Positions 42,347 to 53,140 of a stretch of 64,000 nt of DNA are shown here, in pieces; within the stretch, counting starts at the first letter, position 1, and the number at the start of each line of letters is the position of its first letter. A model generated the notes under the pieces. It saw only the letters and a program-made list of their open reading frames with translations. It was not told the origin of the DNA and did not search any database. The translations under genes and the position numbers were made by a program. Source of the stretch: Mycolicibacterium sarraceniae (GTDB taxonomy: Bacteria > Actinomycetota > Actinomycetes > Mycobacteriales > Mycobacteriaceae); assembly GCF_010731875.1 (NCBI RefSeq), contig NZ_AP022595.1, forward strand, positions 3,348,001-3,412,000, in the 5' to 3' direction.

Positions 42347-42592
42347 CTTCAGGGGTCGTATGACCTCGGGTGCTGCTTACCCTTTTGCCTTCGATGGTTT
42401 GTCGATCTCGCAGGTGGCATCAAAGGACCGGGTGTCGCGTCAGCTACCCAAATTGCCCAGTTCGAGGATGACTTGGGTTGTCCTAGAGGCAGGCGATGTC
42501 GCTCGCCATGTTGTGACCGAGCGGCTCTGTGCGTGATTTGCATTGTCTCGCAGAGAAAATCGGCGTGGCGACATTTCTGCCGCCGTCATGAG

Positions 42593-42935
42593 TTCCAATG
42601 GTCTGAGTATCCGCCGCACACAGGAACCACCACCCATCGCCGCAGATCTACTTGACAAGGCCCTCGAGCTGCGCTCGTTGGTGACCTCAGCGGGCACGCT
42701 CGAGCTTTCCCTGCACGAAGTGCCAGTTCCCAAGCCGAGCGAGAACGAGGTCCTCGTACGTATCGAAGCCTCGCCGATCAACCGTCCGATCTGGGGCTGC
42801 TCATCGCCGGCGCCGACATGGCCAAGGCGATGGTGACGGGTACGCCGGAGCGCCCGATCGTGACGGTGCCTATCGCAAATCTGAAAGCCTTGGCCGCCCG
42901 CCTCGATCAGTCGCTCCCGGTCGGCGAGCCAGATC
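42593..42935 (+). pseudogene. Quinone oxidoreductase (zinc-type alcohol dehydrogenase family) fragment
   Basis: Starts KALELRSLVTSAGTLELSLH then EVPVPKPSENEVLVRIEASP, the usual N-terminus of a medium-chain quinone oxidoreductase. At about 42780 the frame shifts and resumes as DLGLLIAGADMAKAMVTGTP then ERPIVTVPIANLKALAARLD and QSLPVG. The expected glycine-rich NEGAG block does not follow; unrelated sequence begins. Only about a third of the enzyme remains. Confidence 0.8.
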
Positions 42936-43299
42936 CTCAATGGGATGGAACAGGCCGCCAGCGCGACGGCATCGGAGTGCTCCACTCTCTAACTCCTATC
43001 GATACTCGTGAACCTTCGTGGTCGCGACCGCGAAGGCGAGACGCTTGACGCGCAGTACAGGCAAACGGCTTCAAAATCCTGCCGCGGCTCGAGCAACGAC
43101 CGGGAGCCAGCGGAACAGAGTGGGGCTTGGGTGTGGTGGCTGTCATTCGGTGAATGGTTGCGACGCATGAACCGGCGCTCTGCGCCGCGCAATACTGACC
43201 CTGCCGACGAATCTGTGAAATAGCGCGGGTGGGCCACCTTACTCGTTTAGGCTGCACCTGGCCCTCCAGCGGGGTGTGGCCAGATGGGAGCGCGCCGTT
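42936..43299. other. Gap without a recognised gene
   Basis: Open frames here are short and show no conserved pattern on either strand. The last 40 bases should contain the lipoprotein promoter; a run reading ACTCGTTTAGGCT could hold a weak -10. The 246 bases between the tRNA and the oxidoreductase fragment are likewise featureless. Confidence 0.5.
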
Positions 43300-43938
43300 A
43301 TGAGTCGTGTATGGACGCGAGCAGTCGTCCGGGTTACGGCGGCCGCCGTCGTTCTCGGGTTGGTCGTGGCCGGCTGCGGTAAGGATGACGAAAAGTCGTC
43401 CTCAACGTCGATGAGCAAGGCGACGTCGACCCCAACGTCCACCAGCACTGCGACGCCAACGGCTGCGGCGGCATCCAACTACGAGTCGCTGCTGATCAAG
43501 GCCGCAGACATCCCGCCGATCGGCACCGCGCCCTGGACTGGTGACGCGCCAAAGACCACTCTGGATCCCGCACCGCCGGATGTCACCCAGACGTTCTCGT
43601 CAGGCACCAATGCCATCAACGTGTCGATCATCATCGCCGATGACGCATCGCAGGCCGCCACCGCGCTGACCGGCGCTGCCAACAGCGTTCCGTCGCAGGT
43701 GACCGGCTCGCCGGTACCGCTGCCGGCAGTCTCGCCCGACGCGACCGTCACCATCGGCACCTCGCCGGACGGCAAGTCGGCGATGGCGGCTCTGCTGTTC
43801 ACGGTTGACCGGACCGTCGCGGTGATCGTGTTAGGCAGCGGCCCCGGTGATCTCACCCCGGTCCCGCAGGACTACGCCGAGGCCGTCGGCAAGGCTCAGG
43901 TCGCCGCGATCCAGGCAGGCCTGCCCAACCTGAAGTAA
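43300..43938 (+). CDS. Putative lipoprotein
   Basis: 212 aa. Signal peptide with lipobox V-V-A-G-C (cysteine about residue 27), then a Ser/Thr/Lys linker typical of mycobacterial lipoproteins (KSSSTSMSKATSTPTSTSTA), then a globular domain starting ESLLIKAADIPPIGTAPWTG, ending AQVAAIQAGLPNLK. It resembles LpqN/LpqT/sensor-like lipoproteins by layout but no ligand is known. ATG 43300 is chosen (GGGAG nine bases upstream); an in-frame GTG at 43276 would spoil the signal peptide. A strong hairpin terminator follows. Surface-anchored. Confidence 0.85.
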   Translation: MSRVWTRAVVRVTAAAVVLGLVVAGCGKDDEKSSSTSMSKATSTPTSTSTATPTAAAASNYESLLIKAADIPPIGTAPWTGDAPKTTLDPAPPDVTQTFSSGTNAINVSIIIADDASQAATALTGAANSVPSQVTGSPVPLPAVSPDATVTIGTSPDGKSAMAALLFTVDRTVAVIVLGSGPGDLTPVPQDYAEAVGKAQVAAIQAGLPNLK

Positions 43939-43944
43939 CTCCTC

Positions 43945-43983
43945 GCGAAACGGCCGGGGGCGTTGCACCCCCGGCCTTTTCGC
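43945..43983. terminator. Bidirectional intrinsic terminator
   Basis: GGCCGGGGG (43952-43960), loop CGTTGCA, CCCCCGGCC (43968-43976), with outer arms GCGAAA (43945-43950) and TTTCGC (43978-43983) and a TTTT tail on the plus strand. It sits between the lipoprotein gene and the convergent pseudogene. Confidence 0.9.
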
Positions 43984-43985
43984 TT

Positions 43986-44470
43986 CTAGAGCCCCGATTT
44001 GGGCGGCCTGCGAAACCGCCGGAAGCGCGCATTCACGCTCAGCGGCAACGCCTGGTTGAACGGGGGATGCGGGGTCACTCCTCCCGTCGAGCTCTCATCG
44101 CGGGCGCGGACCACCACCAGGAACACCCCGTTGCCGAGCAGGCCCTCGACCACTTCGCCCATGATCGGCCGCGTGAACGCGTACGACAGCGAGACGCCGA
44201 TGATGAAGAGCAGCGAGCCGCTGAACAGTGACCGCTTTCCCTGACGCCAAATCAGATTATGTTCGCGGGTCGCCCGGCGCATGCGCAGCTGAACGTAGCG
44301 GCGGACCGCCAGCGTCACCGTGGCGGACGCCTCTTCGGAGCATTCGGTGCCAAGCTGCAGGACGATCCGTTGCTCAGCAGTGATGATCTTCTGAGCCAGA
44401 ATCGCTCCACCAGTTCGTCCACAGTGTCGAGCTCGATCACCACATCCGTCGCAGGAAGCCGAAACCGGCG
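43986..44470 (-). pseudogene. Decayed membrane-protein gene occupying the jetD position
   Basis: Minus strand, 3' of jetC. An N-terminal piece (DVVIELDTVDELVERFW) shifts frame to QKIITAEQRIVLQLGTECSE and continues LAVRRYVQLRMRRATREHNL, one helix SLLFIIGVSLSYAFTRPIMG, then LLGNGVFLVVV, where it jumps to a C-terminal tail RARDESSTGGVTPHPPFNQA and LPLSVNARFRRFRR. So there is one frameshift and one internal deletion that removed a second helix. It resembles a conserved mycobacterial protein of unknown function as I remember it. It bears no similarity to JetD. Confidence 0.65.
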
Positions 44471-44489: not shown

Positions 44490-47400
44490 TCAGACGGTCG
44501 CCGGCACCCGCTCCCGCGCCGCCGTGCTGCGCATCTCGGCGCGCAGGTTGGTGAAGTCCGAGATCGTCTTGGCCGCCACGGTGGCCACCGGGCGGGCATT
44601 GCGGCTGGTGGCTTCCGTCTTCGACACCATGATCACGCTGTCGATATAGGGCTGAATCGTCGTCGCGTTCTGCACAGTGGCGACGATGACGAGCTGGAAA
44701 CCGAACTTCCGGAACGCCTGCAGCGCCTGCTGGGCGAACTGCGGATCGGACTTGGAGAACGCCTCGTCGAGCATCAACTGGGCGAAAACCGGCTTGTTGT
44801 CCGCACTCTCAGGGTTGGCCAGGTTGAAGCTCAACGCGCCGGCTAGGCAGAACGCCATCAGCTTCTCCTGCTCGCCACCGGAGTTGTCACCGGCGTTGCT
44901 GTGCGTGCGGATCAGTTCCTCGGTGCGGATGTCCCATTCGGCGCAGTCGAAGGTGAAGCGGTTGCGGACATCCAGCGCGTCACGGGTCCACGCCTTGTCC
45001 TCCGGTGCGGTCGATGCCAGCCGGTTGCGCAACCGCAGAATGTCGGCGTATTGATCCAGGATCGCCTGCTTATCGCCCAGGCCGACCTCAGCGATGCGCC
45101 GAGAGATGGCCCGGACGATCTCGGTGAGCTCGGCGACGGCGGTCAGGCTGCGAGGAGTGGCGCGCAGCGTCAACCGGGTGCCGTTGTTGAACTCGACGGC
45201 GCCCAGGCCGGTGTTGACCCGGTCGATCTGCTCGCTGATCCGCCGGGTTTCCTGCTCGGCGACTCGGTGCAGGGTGAGGATGGCGTCGGGTGCCTGCTCG
45301 GTGACCAGCCGCATCATCCGGTCGTAGGCCTCGGGCAGCTCGCGTTCGTCGATATGCCGGCACAGCGCCACGTAGTCATGCACCCGCTCGTCGAAGACAT
45401 CGCTGTCGTTGGGGATCGCATCGGGGAAGGTGGTGTCGAACGTGTTGAGGATGCGGGCCAGCTCATCGTAGGAACGCCTGCGGCTTTCCCTCAGCTGCTC
45501 GCGTTCCTTGCGGATAGTGTTGAACACCGCTTCGCGGTGCGGCTCGGGATTGAGCACTTCCAACGGCACCGGCACATCGGCGGCATAACGGTTCAGCAGC
45601 TCGGTCAGCGGCTCCGAGACGAACGTGGGCGCCAGCCGATCCTGGAGGTCGAGCAGCTGGGTGCGTCGGGCGTCCAGATCGTCACGGCGGGTCTGGATGG
45701 CACCGCGCCGCGTCATCAGCGTCTGGATCTCGTCCCACACCTCGTCGGCGCGCGCGTTGAGCGCCTCGATATCGGGATTGTCGGCCAGCAGGAGCTCGTA
45801 TTGCTCGCGCAATCGGTCGGCGTGCCCGTCGGCAGTATCGACGTCTACCTGATTCCACTGCGGGAATTGCTCGCAGATCGCCTTGCACGCCGCAGACCGG
45901 TCCCGCCACTGCTGGCGTTGTGCGGCAATCTCATCGGCGGCCCGGCGCGCTTGTTGGTAGGCGTCTTCGGCATTGGCGAGATCGACGGTCAGCGCGTCGA
46001 TCTTCGCGGCCACCTCACCTTGGTAGATGTAATCGGATTGTCGCAGCGGACGCCGGTCATCCTTGATGGCCAGCCGGTCGGAATCCTTGTACAGGCCGGT
46101 ATCGGTGACCGCGCGCCGGAAGCGGGAGAACACATCCGGGGTATCCACACAGATGTGGTCGCCCGCCGCGGCGATGACGTCAGCGGCCTCGGCGGCACAC
46201 GGATGGGTCGGGTCGACGACAAACAGCTTGCCGGCCAACGTATTCGGCTCGGCCTCTGTCACCGCGGCGCCGACGAGGCTGGTACGGACGTGATGCAGCT
46301 GCAGCCGGCCACCCATATCGGTCTCGTTGACGAACCGCAGCACTGCGGAATACTGCTCGTCGGGTACCAGCAGTCGCAGGCCGACGCCGCGCAGCACCTT
46401 CTCCACCGCCACCCGCCAGCGGCTCTGGTCCGGGCGCAGGTCCATCAACTCGGCGATATAGGGCAGTTCGCTGGGGTCGACACCGACTGCGGCACAGATG
46501 TGTTCGCGCATGGTGATCGCGAACTCGGGCAGCGCCGAGCCGACATGCTCGACGCGTTTGAGTTCCTTGGCGGCGTCGTCGCGGGCGATGCGCGCCGCCT
46601 TTTGCGCGTATTCGGCATCGGTGGAGGCTTCGCGGCCCCGGTCGAGCTTGGCCAGCAGTTCGGTGACACTGGTGGTGAGTTCCTCACGCAGGTTCCAGAA
46701 GTCGTCAGCGCTGTTGGGGATGTCGATGTCCTGCGCGTTCAGCATCGCTTCGTAGGCGGCCCGCCGGCGTGACACCTGCTCGGCCTGTGCCTCGGCGCCG
46801 GCCACCTGCGACTGCAACGGCCCCAGGTTCGCGCTGGATCCGCTGATCTGCGCATTGAGCGAATCTCCTTCGGCCTTAGCGAGATTGAGCTGACGGGTGA
46901 CGTCCTCATACTCGTTGCCGAGCTGGTCGATCGTCGAGTCCAGTGCGGTGATCTGCGGTGCGCATTGCGCGAGTCGCACATGGTCGGTGTAGGCCCGCAC
47001 CATCGACAGATCGACGAGGTCGATGATGCCCAGGTCGGAAGACTCCGACGCGTAGCGCTGCTGGATCTTCTCGATATCGCCGAGGATCTTGCGCTTGCGC
47101 TGCGCGACGGCCAGCAGCTCGCGGGCCTCCACCAGCGGGTCGATCTGCTTGAGCGCATCGGGCAGGCGGGTCAAGCTGCTCGGCTCGTCGAGCATGAACT
47201 CACGGACGAACTGCTCCAATCCGCCAACGCTTTTCAGTGACTTGGCCTTGCCGAGCAGCTGCTGGGCCGCATCGGATGCGCGGATGCCGATGGTGGCGTA
47301 CAGCTGGGCGAGGTACTGCGATTCGACTTTGGTGGAAAAGCGCCATTCGTCGTCCTTGAACACCCCGGAGTCGAAACGGCCTGCGGCCCAGCGGTTGCAG

Positions 47401-47861
47401 ACATCCTCGATATCGCGGTCGCCATCGGCCAGCACGAACCGGCTCGAGGAATCCGAGCGGGATTCACCGGTCAGCCATTTCAGCACCAGGCCGGTGACGG
47501 TGCGTCCGGTGTTGCTGGAGTAGCTGACCGCGATGGCCGACCATGCGGTGCCTTCGCCGCGCAGGTACATGACCTTGCTGGTACCACCGTCGCTGCGCTG
47601 ACCCCATGCCCCTCGCACGTATTTGTCGACGGTGCGCCGGCCCGCGCTGGAGCCGGCGGCGGTGTTATCACCGGAGGCGTTGAAGTTGCGCCGGTTGAAC
47701 GGCAGGAATCCGAGCGAAATCGCGTCGAGCAGTGACGATTTGCCGCTGCCTGAGGCACCGGCGATGAGCGCGCCACCATCGCTGAACGGGATGTCGTGGT
47801 ATCCATCGAACACACCCCAGTTGATGACTTGTAGTCGCGACAAGTGGAACTGTTCAGCCAT
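44490..47861 (-). CDS. jetC: JetC, SMC-like ATPase of a Wadjet anti-plasmid system
   Basis: 1123 aa MukB/SMC-type ATPase. Walker [10 protein letters not shown] (residues 35-43) near the N-terminus; long coiled coils (roughly 270-480 and 650-860) flanking a hinge-like region; the ABC signature [12 protein letters not shown] and Walker [12 protein letters not shown] near the C-terminus. In Wadjet, JetABC loads on DNA, extrudes loops and senses small circular DNA, and JetD then cuts. ATG 47861 overlaps the jetB end by 8 bases. The gene looks intact, but no jetD gene follows; the next 500 bases are an unrelated decayed membrane-protein gene. Confidence 0.88.
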
Positions 47862-48549
47862 CCTGGGCGGCCTCCTGATCGTCACGCTCCGGTGCGGCTC
47901 CGCCGGACAGCAGCAGTTCGAACTGCTGCTGCAACTCGGCAATCACCGAAGCGGTCATCACGGCGTTGATCACCGGGCTGACGGTGTAGCTGTCTTCGTC
48001 GTCGCGGGTCTTGCGCAGGATCTCCAGGCCGGCCAGGCGGGTGATGGCCGCGTCGATACGGGCGGTGAAGGTGACGGTGTCGCGGTCGACATCGTTGAGT
48101 ACCCCGGCGAACAGCCCGTGCACCTCCTCGCGGCTGATCAACACGGCCTGGCCGCCCGTTGCGCGCGTCATTTGCGCCAGGTGCAGCGCCAGGATGGAGT
48201 CGTAGGTGCCCAGCGGCTCCCGACGCAAAAGCTTTGCTCCCCTTGCTGATTCGTAGCGAGCCTGCTCAATGAAGGCGATGTCACTGCCATCGGTGATCCG
48301 CAGTATCAGGTCGAGCTCGCAGAGCCGCACGGACAATTGCGCACGGTATTCGAGCACCCAGCTGTAGAGGTCCTGGTCGGCCTCGGCGCTGATGTAGCGG
48401 CGGGTCAGCAGCTGCTGCAGAGCCCAGCAGGCCCGGTCGGGCAGCTCGCTGATATCGCCGTCGAATCGTGGCCGCCGCTGGTGCGGGGTGCGGGCGGTCT
48501 GGTCGACCTGGGGGAGTGAGGAGAAATCGATATCGGCGTCGGTGCTCAT
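47854..48549 (-). CDS. jetB: JetB, MukE-like subunit (DUF4194)
   Basis: 231 aa. Winged-helix kleisin-interacting protein of the DUF4194 family: [60 protein letters not shown] and a C-terminal wing [23 protein letters not shown] 48549 overlaps the jetA stop by 4 bases (ATGA), and its end overlaps jetC. It bridges the JetC ATPase heads and JetA. Intact. Confidence 0.87.
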
Positions 48550-50024
48550 GCGCTGGCTCCCAGCAGACTGGAGATCGGTTCGGTGAACACCAGGTGTGGA
48601 ACCTCCATCTCGCGGTCACGTCCGTCCAGCGACTGGAACCGGACGGTGACCGGCTTGGCGTCTGGTGCAACGTCGGGCTGTTTGAGCGCCCAGGACCACA
48701 ACACGATGACGTGGCCCAGGTAGGCCGCATCGAGCATGTCCACTGCCTCGGGCAGCGACAGCCGCCCGCCCGCGTCGATCGCGGTGTTGATCATCTCCGA
48801 CATCGCGGGCGCGTCGACCTGGGTGGTCAGTGCTGCGAAGCTGGACAGGTCGAGCTCGCCCTCAGCTGTTTGCGCCGGTCTGGGGTTGGACAGGTCGCCG
48901 ATCCGGAAGCTCAAGGCGCCAACCGAACTGATGGCGTGCCGGGCCAGGGGGAGTTCGATATCGAGGCGCGAGTCGGTCAGCGAGCTCTTGAGCAGCGCCC
49001 GGGCCGAGCCGATCGCGTCGCCCAGCTGACGGGCCACCCCGCGACTCTGCTCCAGGGTCCCGAACGCGGTGAATCGTTTGACCCGCTGGGCGCAGCGCTG
49101 TTGGATGCGCTCGACCTCATCGATCTGCTGGCCGACGAGCTCGAAGAAGCCCGCCATCACCTTGCGCAGCGCCGGGTCGAGGGCGGGCAGCGCATGGGCG
49201 ACGGCGGCGACGTCTGCCTCGAACTCGGACCGCTGGTCGGGATCGTTGATCATTCGCAGGAAGGCGCGGTGGCTGTCGCGGCCCTGGGAGTCCCACGCGG
49301 CCTGGTAGTCGGCGTACATCTGACGCTGCCGGTCGCGGTAGGCGAGGTTGCCCTCGATCGGCTCGTCCAGGGCGGCGGTGGCCCGCTCGATCATGGTGCC
49401 GTACTGACCGATGTCGGTGATCAGCCGTTCCATCTGCAGGGCGATGGCGTGGGCCTCGTCGTACATATCGGTCATATCGACCTCGGCAGTGCGGTCGCCG
49501 AGGTCCTCACCGCGTTCCAGGGCGTCGAGTTCGGCTTGGAGTGCGGTGATCTCGGCCTGGATGCCGGCGCGGATCCGGACCGGGTCATTGCCCACCCGTA
49601 GGGCGATCTGCTTGAGGCGGGCCGCGATGCCGTTGATCGATCCGCCAGTGGCGATGGTGTCCTGGCGTCGCAGCCCGCGCAGGAAGTCCAAAGCGCGACG
49701 GGCGTCCTGGGTCAGATAGCAGAGGTTGCGTTCGATGCCGCTGCGCTGGTCGGCCACCCGGTGCAGCCAGCCCTGGCTGGCCCAGTTCTTGATCAGGCCG
49801 AGCCCGGACTGTTCGCCGCCGGGGCGTCCGAGATCATCGAGGTCACGTTCGATGCGCACGACCAGTTCGGTTTCGGGGATCACGCCGTCGTTGAGGTGGC
49901 GTTCCATCAGGGTGGCGTAGCCGCCCAGGTTGATCGTGGCCAGCAGCCGGACCGTGGGGGAGCCCTGGATACCGCGATTGATTTCGAGCAGGTCAGCGGC
50001 GGACAAGGTGGTGCCGTCGTCCAC
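48546..50024 (-). CDS. jetA: JetA, MukF-like kleisin (DUF3375)
   Basis: 492 aa. N-terminal winged-helix dimer part (SPTVRLLATINLGGYATLME, then KNWASQGWLHRVADQRSGIE), long helical middle and a DUF3375 C-terminus (ALKQPDVAPDAKPVTVRFQS, then VPHLVFTEPISSLLG). GTG 50024 is chosen because GAGGAGG stands eight bases upstream and family similarity starts at once. It is the first gene of the jetABC operon, and the space of about 250 bases to the mmpL stop should contain its promoter. Intact. Confidence 0.86.
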   Translation of the reverse strand: MDDGTTLSAADLLEINRGIQGSPTVRLLATINLGGYATLMERHLNDGVIPETELVVRIERDLDDLGRPGGEQSGLGLIKNWASQGWLHRVADQRSGIERNLCYLTQDARRALDFLRGLRRQDTIATGGSINGIAARLKQIALRVGNDPVRIRAGIQAEITALQAELDALERGEDLGDRTAEVDMTDMYDEAHAIALQMERLITDIGQYGTMIERATAALDEPIEGNLAYRDRQRQMYADYQAAWDSQGRDSHRAFLRMINDPDQRSEFEADVAAVAHALPALDPALRKVMAGFFELVGQQIDEVERIQQRCAQRVKRFTAFGTLEQSRGVARQLGDAIGSARALLKSSLTDSRLDIELPLARHAISSVGALSFRIGDLSNPRPAQTAEGELDLSSFAALTTQVDAPAMSEMINTAIDAGGRLSLPEAVDMLDAAYLGHVIVLWSWALKQPDVAPDAKPVTVRFQSLDGRDREMEVPHLVFTEPISSLLGASA

Positions 50025-50278: not shown

Positions 50279-53140
50279 CTAGCGCAGCAGTGCGCCGTGC
50301 GGCCGCTTCGACAGCGGCTTGGGCCGCACGGTTTGCGGCCACCAGAACCACGGACCCATCATCGCGGCGATCGCCGGCGTCATGAACGCGCGCACCACCA
50401 AGGTGTCGAACAGCAGACCGAGCCCGATCGTCGTCCCGACTTGGGCGACCACCACCATGGCGCTGACTGACATCGAGATCATCGTGAATGCGAAGACCAA
50501 ACCCGCCGCCGTCACCACTGACCCGCTACCGCCCATCGCGCGGATGATGCCGGTGTTGATGCCCGCCGGTATCTCTTCTTTCATCCGGGCGACCAGCAAC
50601 AGGTTGTAGTCGGCACCCACCGCCAACAAGATGATGACCGCCATCGCCATCACCATGAACTGCAGTTCCATCCCCAAGATGTGCTGCCAGAGCAGCACCG
50701 ACAGCCCGAACGACGCCCCGAGTGAGAGCACGACGGTGCCGACGATCACCGCGGCGGCGATGACCGCCCGGGTGATGATCAGCATGATGATGAAGATCAG
50801 CGACAACGCCGCCACGCCGGCGATCAGCAGGTCGTACTCATTGCCTTCCTGCATGTCCTTGAAGGATGAGGCGGTGCCGCCCAAGTAGACCTTCGAGCCC
50901 TCCAGCGGGGTGCCCTTGATGGCTTCGAAGACTGCATTCTTGATCGCGTCGATGCGGTTGATGCCTTCGGCCGACAGCGGGTCGTTCTCGTGGGAGATGA
51001 TGAAACGGATCGCGTGGCCGTCAGGGGAGATGAAATTCTTTATGCCGCGCTTGAACTCGTCGTTGTCGAAGATCTCCGGCGGCAGGTAGAACGTGTCGTC
51101 GTTGAGTGAGTCGTTGAACGCGGTGCCCATCGCCGCTTGGTTCTGGCTGAGGGCGGCCTGCTGATCCTGCTGGCCGGCCTGGGTGGCCTGCTGGGTCAGC
51201 ATCATGATCCGCATCCGCTTCATCGATTCGATCGACGATTTCATTAGCGGAACCATTTGCGGCATCAAGGCATCCAGCTGGTGCATATCTGGAAGCAGTT
51301 CCTGGATGTCGTCGACCATGGTGCCGACGCCGTCCAGCGTGTCGAACACCGACCGCGTCGACCAGCACAGCGGAATGTCGTAGCAGTGCGGTTCCCAATA
51401 GAGGTAACTGCGGATGGGGCGGAAGAAGTCGTCGAAGTCGGAGATGTGGTTGCGCAGATCCGCGATATCGACATACATCTCGTCCATCTTGCCGACCATG
51501 TCGTGCATGAGGCCGCTCATGTTTTCCATCAAGTTGATCATCTGCGTCATCGTGTTGATGGTGTCTTGCATCTGCTCGCCCTGCTTCAGCATGTCAGCCA
51601 TGCGGTCCTGCAGGTAGGAGCGGTTCAAAGTCTGCCCGGTTCCGCCCATGCTGATCTGAGCCGGAATCGTGCTGTACTTCAACGGCTTTCCAGCGGGGCG
51701 GGTGATCGACTGCACCCGACCGATACCGGGAACCTTCGAAATGGCCTTACTGATCCGCTCGATCACCAGGAAGTCCGCTGAGTTGCGCACATCCTGGTCG
51801 GTCTCCACCAACAGCATCTCGGGGTTCATCCGGGCAATCGGGAAGTGCCGCTCGGCGGCGGCGAAGCCCTCGTTGGCGGGCAGGTCGGCCGGCAGGTATT
51901 GGCGGTCGTTGTAGTTCGGCTTGTAGCCCGGCAGCGTGATCAGACCGATCAACGCAATCATGATCGTCGCGAACAAGATGCCAGCGGGCCAGCGCACCAC
52001 GAGCGCGCCAAGCTTGCGCCAGAACCGGATCCGCATAGCGCGCTTGGGCTCGAGCATTCCGAACCGGCTGGCCACCGTGACGATCGCGGCGCCCAGCGTG
52101 AGCGCTGACACCACGGCGACCACCATGCCGACTGCGAGCGGTACGCCCAACGACTTGAAGTACGGCAACCGGGTGAAGGACAGGCAGAAGGTCGCACCCG
52201 CGATCGTCATACCCGAGGCCAGCACCACGTGCGCGGTGCCGTGATACATCGTGTAGTACGCCGACTCTTTGTCTTCCCCGAGCGCCCGGGCCTCCTGATA
52301 TCGGCCTATCAGGAAGATCGCATAGTCCGTTGTCGCGGCTATTGCCAAAGTCACGAGTAGCTGGGTCGCAAACGGCGAGAGGCCTATGAGGTCGTGATAG
52401 CCCAGGAACGCCACCGCGCCGCGGGTGACCGATAGTCCCAGGATCAGCATCACCAGAACCAGCACCACCGTCATCACCGACCGGTAGAAGAACAACAGCA
52501 TGATGATGATGACGCCGATGGTCGTGAGCTCGATGATCCGGATGCTCTTGTCGCCGGCCAGCTGCTGGTCGGCCTGGAGAGCCGGGCCACCGGTCACGAA
52601 CACCTTGACACCCGGCGGCGGGGACAGGCCCCTGACGATTTTCTGGACGGCCTCGACCGAGTCGTTGCCGAGTGCCTCGCCCATATTTCCGGCGAGGTTC
52701 ACCTGCACATACACGGCTTTTTCGTCGGCGCTGAGCGCACCGGCTTCGGTGAGCGGATCACCCCAGAAGTCTTGGATGTGCTGCACATGGGTGGTGTCGG
52801 CCCGCAGCTTGGTGATCATGTCGCTGTAGAAGCGGCGCGCGTCGTCCCCGAGCGGCTTGTCTCCCTCGAGGACGATCATCGCCGAACTGTCGGAGTCGGA
52901 CTCCTGGAAAACCTTGCCCGAACGCATCATCGCGATGACCGATGGCGCGTCCTTGGGGGACATCGACACCGCCCGCAGCTTGCCGACCTCTTCCAGCTGC
53001 GGCACGACGGTATTCAGCACGACGATCAGGCCGATCCAGGCCAGGATGATCGGCACGGCCAATCGGCGGATCCACTTGGCCAAAGCCGCACGTTGTGGCG
53101 GTTCGGCGGCGACCACGCGCTCTTGGGTCGGGGTGCTCAC
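50279..53140 (-). CDS. mmpL: MmpL-family RND transporter (no adjacent MmpS)
   Basis: 953 aa, 12 predicted helices with two large periplasmic loops (after helix 1 and after helix 7). The proton-relay helices carry the paired [22 protein letters not shown] and [20 protein letters not shown]. The MmpL periplasmic blocks [20 protein letters not shown] and [20 protein letters not shown] are clear. It exports lipids or siderophores across the inner membrane. It is closely related to the second MmpL in this window but has no mmpS; upstream lies a cysteine-desulfurase remnant instead. Confidence 0.92.

Follow-up and report, generated by a model that had tools for sequence, protein, structure and literature searches.

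Maintained jetABC genes without jetD in Mycolicibacterium sarraceniae and its relatives: a probable nuclease-free motor of Wadjet type

According to published descriptions of Wadjet, the JetABC motor first extrudes circular DNA and afterwards activates the nuclease JetD (PMC12647877, PMC10586767; these and all other papers cited here are cited from excerpts), which raises the question of what a jetABC operon does when jetD is missing. Such an operon lies in the 64,000 nucleotides of the environmental bacterium Mycolicibacterium sarraceniae analyzed here (the window), positions 3348001-3412000 of a single-contig genome of 4,828,255 bases (NZ_AP022595.1). An earlier note on this DNA had offered three options, a newly disarmed system, a JetD lying elsewhere, or a JetABC that does something useful alone, and only the last was left standing by our analysis. 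We consider it fairly probable that the operon encodes a maintained, nuclease-free JetABC complex, an MksBEF-like motor of the structural maintenance of chromosomes (SMC) type. The jetABC operon is real and complete and occupies the minus strand of the window from 44490 to 50024, with three genes:

48546-50024, minus strand: jetA, kleisin (DUF3375), 492 aa, GTG start at 50024; PADLOC JetA1 818 bits, Pfam PF11855 324 bits
47854-48549, minus strand: jetB, KITE subunit (DUF4194), 231 aa, ATG at 48549; PADLOC JetB1 377 bits, Pfam PF13835 126 bits
44490-47861, minus strand: jetC, SMC ATPase, 1123 aa, ATG at 47861; PADLOC JetC1 2076 bits (protein scanned with five additional N-terminal residues)

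The frames, the overlaps (4 nt between jetA and jetB, 8 nt between jetB and jetC), the PADLOC and Pfam matches and the ATPase motifs of JetC (Walker A GASGSGKS, signature SGGEQEK, Walker B LMLDEAF) all agree with full-length genes, as had been claimed from the sequence. JetC matches the solved E. coli JetC (8as8_A) at 1.1e-58, and no solved relative of JetA or JetB was found at 1e-3. The three genes stand in one operon and match the PADLOC models of Wadjet type I, and the JetD nuclease of that type was found neither in the genome nor in the flank of jetC; SMC, kleisin and KITE subunits with no MksG/JetD gene found are also the gene set of a nuclease-less MksBEF. At 1e-3 the Pfam matches of the three proteins were DUF3375, DUF4194 and AAA/SbcC/SMC-type models only, with no Muk family among them. 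Judged by JetC, the closest named relatives are Mycolicibacterium sphagni (97%) and M. vinylchloridicum (96%), both of them environmental.

Regarding the nuclease, Pfam PF09983 had no match anywhere in the window genome and a profile built from eight JetDs gave nothing at E<=10. The same profile scored 1e-127 or better in 6/6 JetD-positive genomes, gave noise (0.04-0.3) in four of five close JetD-less relatives and nothing in the fifth. A JetD elsewhere in the window genome was rejected, one search having returned two chance-level matches only (E 0.28 and 0.44). The reading of the operon as one without jetD is thus borne out by both searches and by the lack of the gene behind jetC, and nothing in this genome supports the option of a JetD at another place.

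This absence is shared by most relatives. Among 396 genomes sampled from the genus, 235 had a JetC-like match and 68 a JetD. By identity to the window protein, 160 of the 235 lie at 80-100% (some holding only a contig-end piece of JetC or, in G031, a broken copy), 24 at 59-60%, 10 at 56%, 5 at 49-50%, and 36 are weaker. The lineage of the window JetC, at 56-100% identity, is therefore present in 194 of the 396 genomes, and in 166 of these carriers JetD is without a match in the entire genome. The lack of jetD is thus no peculiarity of the window genome; running JetABC without JetD is what this family normally does, which the earlier note had itself named as grounds for refutation. Where JetD does occur in an operon, the JetC beside it is of another kind: JetD is present in 5/5 genomes of the 49-50% group and 32/36 of the weaker group, and in three further genomes of the genus without any JetC match. 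Furthermore, tblastn and profile searches found no JetD beside the JetD-less JetC in any of 67 stretches, each at most 20 kb long (40 from the 80-100% group, nine with JetC at 56-60% and 18 from a second JetD-less group described below), or in 80 named loci, some genomes being common to both sets. jetA and jetB accompany jetC in all 67 stretches and in the window, and in 77 and 80 of the 80 named loci, respectively.

Within the lineage, JetD occurs somewhere in 28 of the 194 carriers (26, 1 and 1 genomes of the 80-100%, 59-60% and 56% groups). These genes or fragments would allow a nuclease acting in trans to replace JetD, be it the JetD of another operon or an unrecognised nuclease. We regard this as improbable because the other carriers, the window genome included, have no JetD, because in the 20 of the 28 genomes whose JetD regions were examined JetD adjoins a different JetC of its own, entire or fragmented, in 16 and is a stray gene or fragment in 4, and because no conserved neighbour gene of the window JetC lineage was found among the neighbour clusters examined. 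In addition, G302 and G345, outside these 20 regions, carry a second, 28% JetC beside JetD, and in G394 a separate JetD-bearing operon shares a 20-kb stretch with the JetD-less one.

JetD-less operons extend beyond the genus. In a family sample of 301 genomes, some from the genus itself, JetC at 56-57% identity was found in 19 genomes of the coded genera g9 and g31, four of which have JetD elsewhere. A second group consists of whole JetC at 31-35% identity in 34 genomes (g7, g11, g13, g17, g19 and g30), none of which has JetD, and two more g30 genomes carry JetC in pieces; g30 is probably Tsukamurella, because a named record of that genus holds a JetC of 34% identity with similar neighbours. 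Matches outside the family, in an order sample of 200 genomes, reached at most 271 bits and 36% JetC identity.

The operon is under purifying selection. Ratios of nonsynonymous to synonymous substitution rates (dN/dS; Nei-Gojobori, own script) against the five nearest relatives examined (L046-L050) were 0.039-0.058 for jetC, 0.075-0.140 for jetA and 0.068-0.141 for jetB, compared with 0.083-0.216 for the adjacent mmpL in the four of these relatives where it was found. Over L046-L084 the jetC ratio was at most 0.158, and against the 59-60% loci L204 and L205 it was 0.36-0.38 at a dS near 0.9, that is, saturated. Walker A, signature and Walker B were found in 70/70 JetD-less JetC rows, among which one sequence is represented twice, and in nearly all JetD-bearing rows too (Walker A in 45/46), so that intact motifs do not single out the JetD-less operons. 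JetC is a single frame in 67/68 JetD-less loci, the exception, L085, holding a second, JetD-bearing operon, and is two-framed in 1/80 named loci. Split or partial genes were found in 12/53 loci of JetD regions; such JetD-bearing operons are L091, L095, L098, L104, L115, L116, L118, L120, L121 and L125, plus L117 and L296. A newly disarmed Wadjet operon heading for decay, which the decayed gene adjoining jetC might suggest, is accordingly extremely improbable: JetD is missing throughout the clade, so its loss is old, and the low dN/dS and the intact frames and ATPase motifs do not fit decay.

The JetB proteins were compared as well, since the excerpts of PMC10586767 name an IFDR motif of JetB as a JetD contact. 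An xFDGD-like element, whose equation with IFDR is a guess (the alignment does not cover that stretch of JetB), was present in 70/70 JetD-less rows, in 5/7 rows of the JetD-bearing sister kind and in 4/15 and 1/29 rows of other JetD-bearing kinds; it does not track JetD presence and was rejected as a marker of JetD. Before this element, the N-terminus of JetB (gene at 47854-48549 in the window) is variable and includes a short conserved peptide, resembling DFxxLPxV in the near group and DLSHFxF in 18/18 far rows, which possibly binds a partner.

A JetC tree of 83 rows, a quick tree of unknown root for which the program warns of long branches, separates the two JetD-less groups. It leaves out L287 and L289 (long branches), rows below 850 aa, the named loci L126-L203 and three quarters of L046-L084, and the JetC trees contain no Pseudomonas sequence. 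A single branch (branch value 99*) sets off all 21 near JetD-less rows and another (100*) all 18 far rows, and the four rows of the JetD-bearing 49-50% kind adjoin the near group. Forcing near and far rows into one JetD-less clade cost 193 log-likelihood units (approximately unbiased test, p-AU 4.8e-17) and was rejected. Since the two groups are separate, at least two losses of JetD are probable, or else a loss followed by a regain. The minimum number of JetD state changes on this tree is three, one of which is a single JetC of L296 beside a JetD-bearing operon. In this locus (L296:6444-18628, minus strand) two tandem jetABC sets, differing in kind, flank a single JetD gene, and the JetC of one set is split over two frames. 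Across the sister kind and the other kinds, JetD can be aligned along its length, with residues that are invariant, and its gene sits at the same operon position, which favours a JetD already present in the ancestor. The surprise lies in the age, the breadth and the apparently repeated origin of the JetD-less operons.

Taken together, because most sampled relatives with the same motor also lack JetD, these data suggest that the motor acquired another role long ago, for example in chromosome upkeep. JetC, JetA and JetB, as SMC ATPase, kleisin and KITE subunit, would form a DNA-extruding motor built as a dimer of dimers, as in Wadjet, and without JetD the end of extrusion would not be coupled to cutting. 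The complex would then serve as a condensin resembling MksBEF, or as an SMC for genome maintenance, acting on chromosomal, and perhaps also plasmid, DNA, and JetD, present in the ancestor, would have been lost before the clade spread through Mycobacterium and related genera. DNA extrusion, its substrate, the chromosomal role and the armed ancestor are parts of this reading that we infer. Several points weigh against it. The chromosomal role of JetABC here is reached by analogy, and the C. glutamicum homologue keeps its nuclease and acts on plasmids, not in chromosome folding, according to the excerpts of PMC10123090 and PMC7022226. The lineage is patchy, a JetC-like match being missing in 161/396 genomes of the genus, so that JetABC is not essential to it. 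JetA was not found in 3/80 named loci (one a short contig), the copy of G031 is broken and six listed rows of the genus sample show one stop. Finally, the high dS (0.35-0.8) makes the dN/dS values rough.

The plasmid activity of the characterised relatives (PMC10123090, PMC7022226) raises a different possibility, a non-cutting control in which JetABC extrudes small circular DNA and compacts, silences or mis-segregates plasmids. The intact JetABC motor is compatible with this, and so is the finding that the window lineage is not itself plasmid-borne: among 72,556 plasmid records searched by tblastn, four had a JetC match, each below 60% identity. However, there is no known mechanism of restriction without JetD, and in B. 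subtilis all four subunits were needed, as reported in the excerpts of PMC10586767, so we consider such plasmid control unlikely. Carriage of the window JetC lineage by plasmids or phages was rejected, the four plasmid records and one phage record all lying below 60% identity. The phage record, MT835499.1:25760-29032 from human faeces, encodes a JetC-like protein that is 28.7% identical over 77% of the query. A Tsukamurella record designated a 22-kb plasmid, L298 (NZ_LR134444.1:1-9610), has a shortened jetA at its start, then jetB, jetC annotated in two pieces and a gene for an AraC-type regulator, and no jetD.

The second JetD-less group offers a further clue. In 12/12 loci examined (L264 to L275, for instance L264:11682-12764, plus strand), of 20 such genomes of g7, g11, g13, g17 and g19, a same-strand gene of 356-394 aa stands behind jetC, with a start -4 to +6 nt relative to the stop of jetC in nine loci and a first possible start 62-80 nt inside jetC in the other three. 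The three linked proteins scanned are AlkZ-like DNA glycosylases (PF06224, 245-265 bits), and one aligns with the solved AlkZ 5uuj (E 8.8e-5), with the two glutamines of Q-x-Q in register. The AlkZ motif is given as (Q/H)-aliphatic-Q in the excerpts of PMC9040887; with QSQ in L264 and QAQ in L275 the fit is close, and not strict in L264. This linkage hints at DNA repair. JetABC would then be a repair motor that partners a DNA-repair enzyme, the partner in Mycobacterium being encoded elsewhere, and the window genome does have an AlkZ-like gene at contig positions 3240617-3241648. Nevertheless, the gene is unlinked in the group of the window, none being found among the neighbour clusters examined for the near group, and it was found behind jetC in 0/6 of the g30 loci examined (of 14 g30 loci). 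AlkZ-like genes occur in 42/42 genomes tested, so the link is one of placement and the presence of the gene is uninformative, and the linked protein used as query matched nothing in the window genome. We find such a repair motor quite unlikely. A broader proposal, that in mycobacteria and related genera JetABC dropped its nuclease at least twice to become a genome-maintenance SMC and that one branch put an AlkZ-type glycosylase where the nuclease had stood behind jetC, coupling a loop-extruding motor to the repair of DNA and no longer to its destruction, is one that we put forward tentatively and regard as doubtful.

The flanks of jetABC in the window genome contain two genes of interest:

43986-44450 (about), minus strand: decayed membrane-protein gene, not jetD, behind jetC where jetD would be expected
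50279-53140, minus strand: MmpL-type transporter gene, upstream, 953 aa, Pfam MMPL 684 bits, context only

The first is what is left of a membrane-protein gene of about 220 aa, broken here and open in L047, L049 and L052, as the earlier note had recognised in calling it decayed and unrelated to jetD. Its 110-aa open piece had no Pfam or PADLOC match at 1e-3, and a JetD remnant was ruled out by tblastn and profile, which found no trace of JetD in the window. A conserved replacement gene beside jetABC in Mycobacterium was also rejected: in a comparison of the 30 largest neighbour clusters, the flanks beyond the MmpL-type frames, which adjoin jetABC in 16/41 loci, were variable and held antisense frames. 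Downstream of jetABC at least two genes are shortened (42440-44450), and the frame at 42543-42836 measures 97 aa compared with about 390 aa in L046. At 4.8 Mb the genome itself is smaller than those of the nine nearest relatives (6.0-7.3 Mb), which, like the shortened genes, is a sign of genome reduction. jetABC was kept while its surroundings shrank.

These results bear on the question of whether SMC defence systems become chromosome-maintenance systems by shedding their nuclease. The excerpts of PMC10586767 (section 7) leave the origin of Wadjet unresolved and treat a transition from it to MukBEF and MksBEF as a tempting speculation, and in the literature searched, outside which most subscription papers lie, neither a JetD-less mycobacterial JetABC clade nor a jetABC-alkZ operon is described. 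One bacterial family here contains two separate JetD-less groups, one of them adjoined by JetD-bearing operons whose JetC is about 50% identical, and some genomes carry a full JetABCD beside the JetD-less set, so that JetD-less and JetD-bearing kin make natural before-and-after pairs for the function of JetABC without JetD. Additionally, good matches to Wadjet models are often not nuclease-armed in these bacteria, and JetC alone misleads as a count of plasmid defence.

Compared with known systems, the window operon resembles Wadjet type I (JetABCD, known as MksBEFG in C. glutamicum and EptABCD in M. smegmatis), with which it shares the order JetA, JetB, JetC and the PADLOC type I matches; it differs in lacking a JetD nuclease, both within the operon and elsewhere in the genome. 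The nearest JetC kin that keep JetD (L099-L103 and L118, 49-50% identity) have the same gene order, but with JetD directly behind jetC. MukBEF shares the general SMC-kleisin-KITE architecture without a nuclease (PMC10586767 section 7, PMC10512200), whereas none of the three window proteins belongs to a Muk family by its Pfam matches. P. aeruginosa MksBEF, for which the excerpts of PMC10586767 report a contribution to chromosome organisation and a presumed origin by JetD loss, likewise consists of SMC, kleisin and KITE subunits without a nuclease; the likeness considered here is that of the subunit set, and the chromosomal role is one shown for the P. aeruginosa system.

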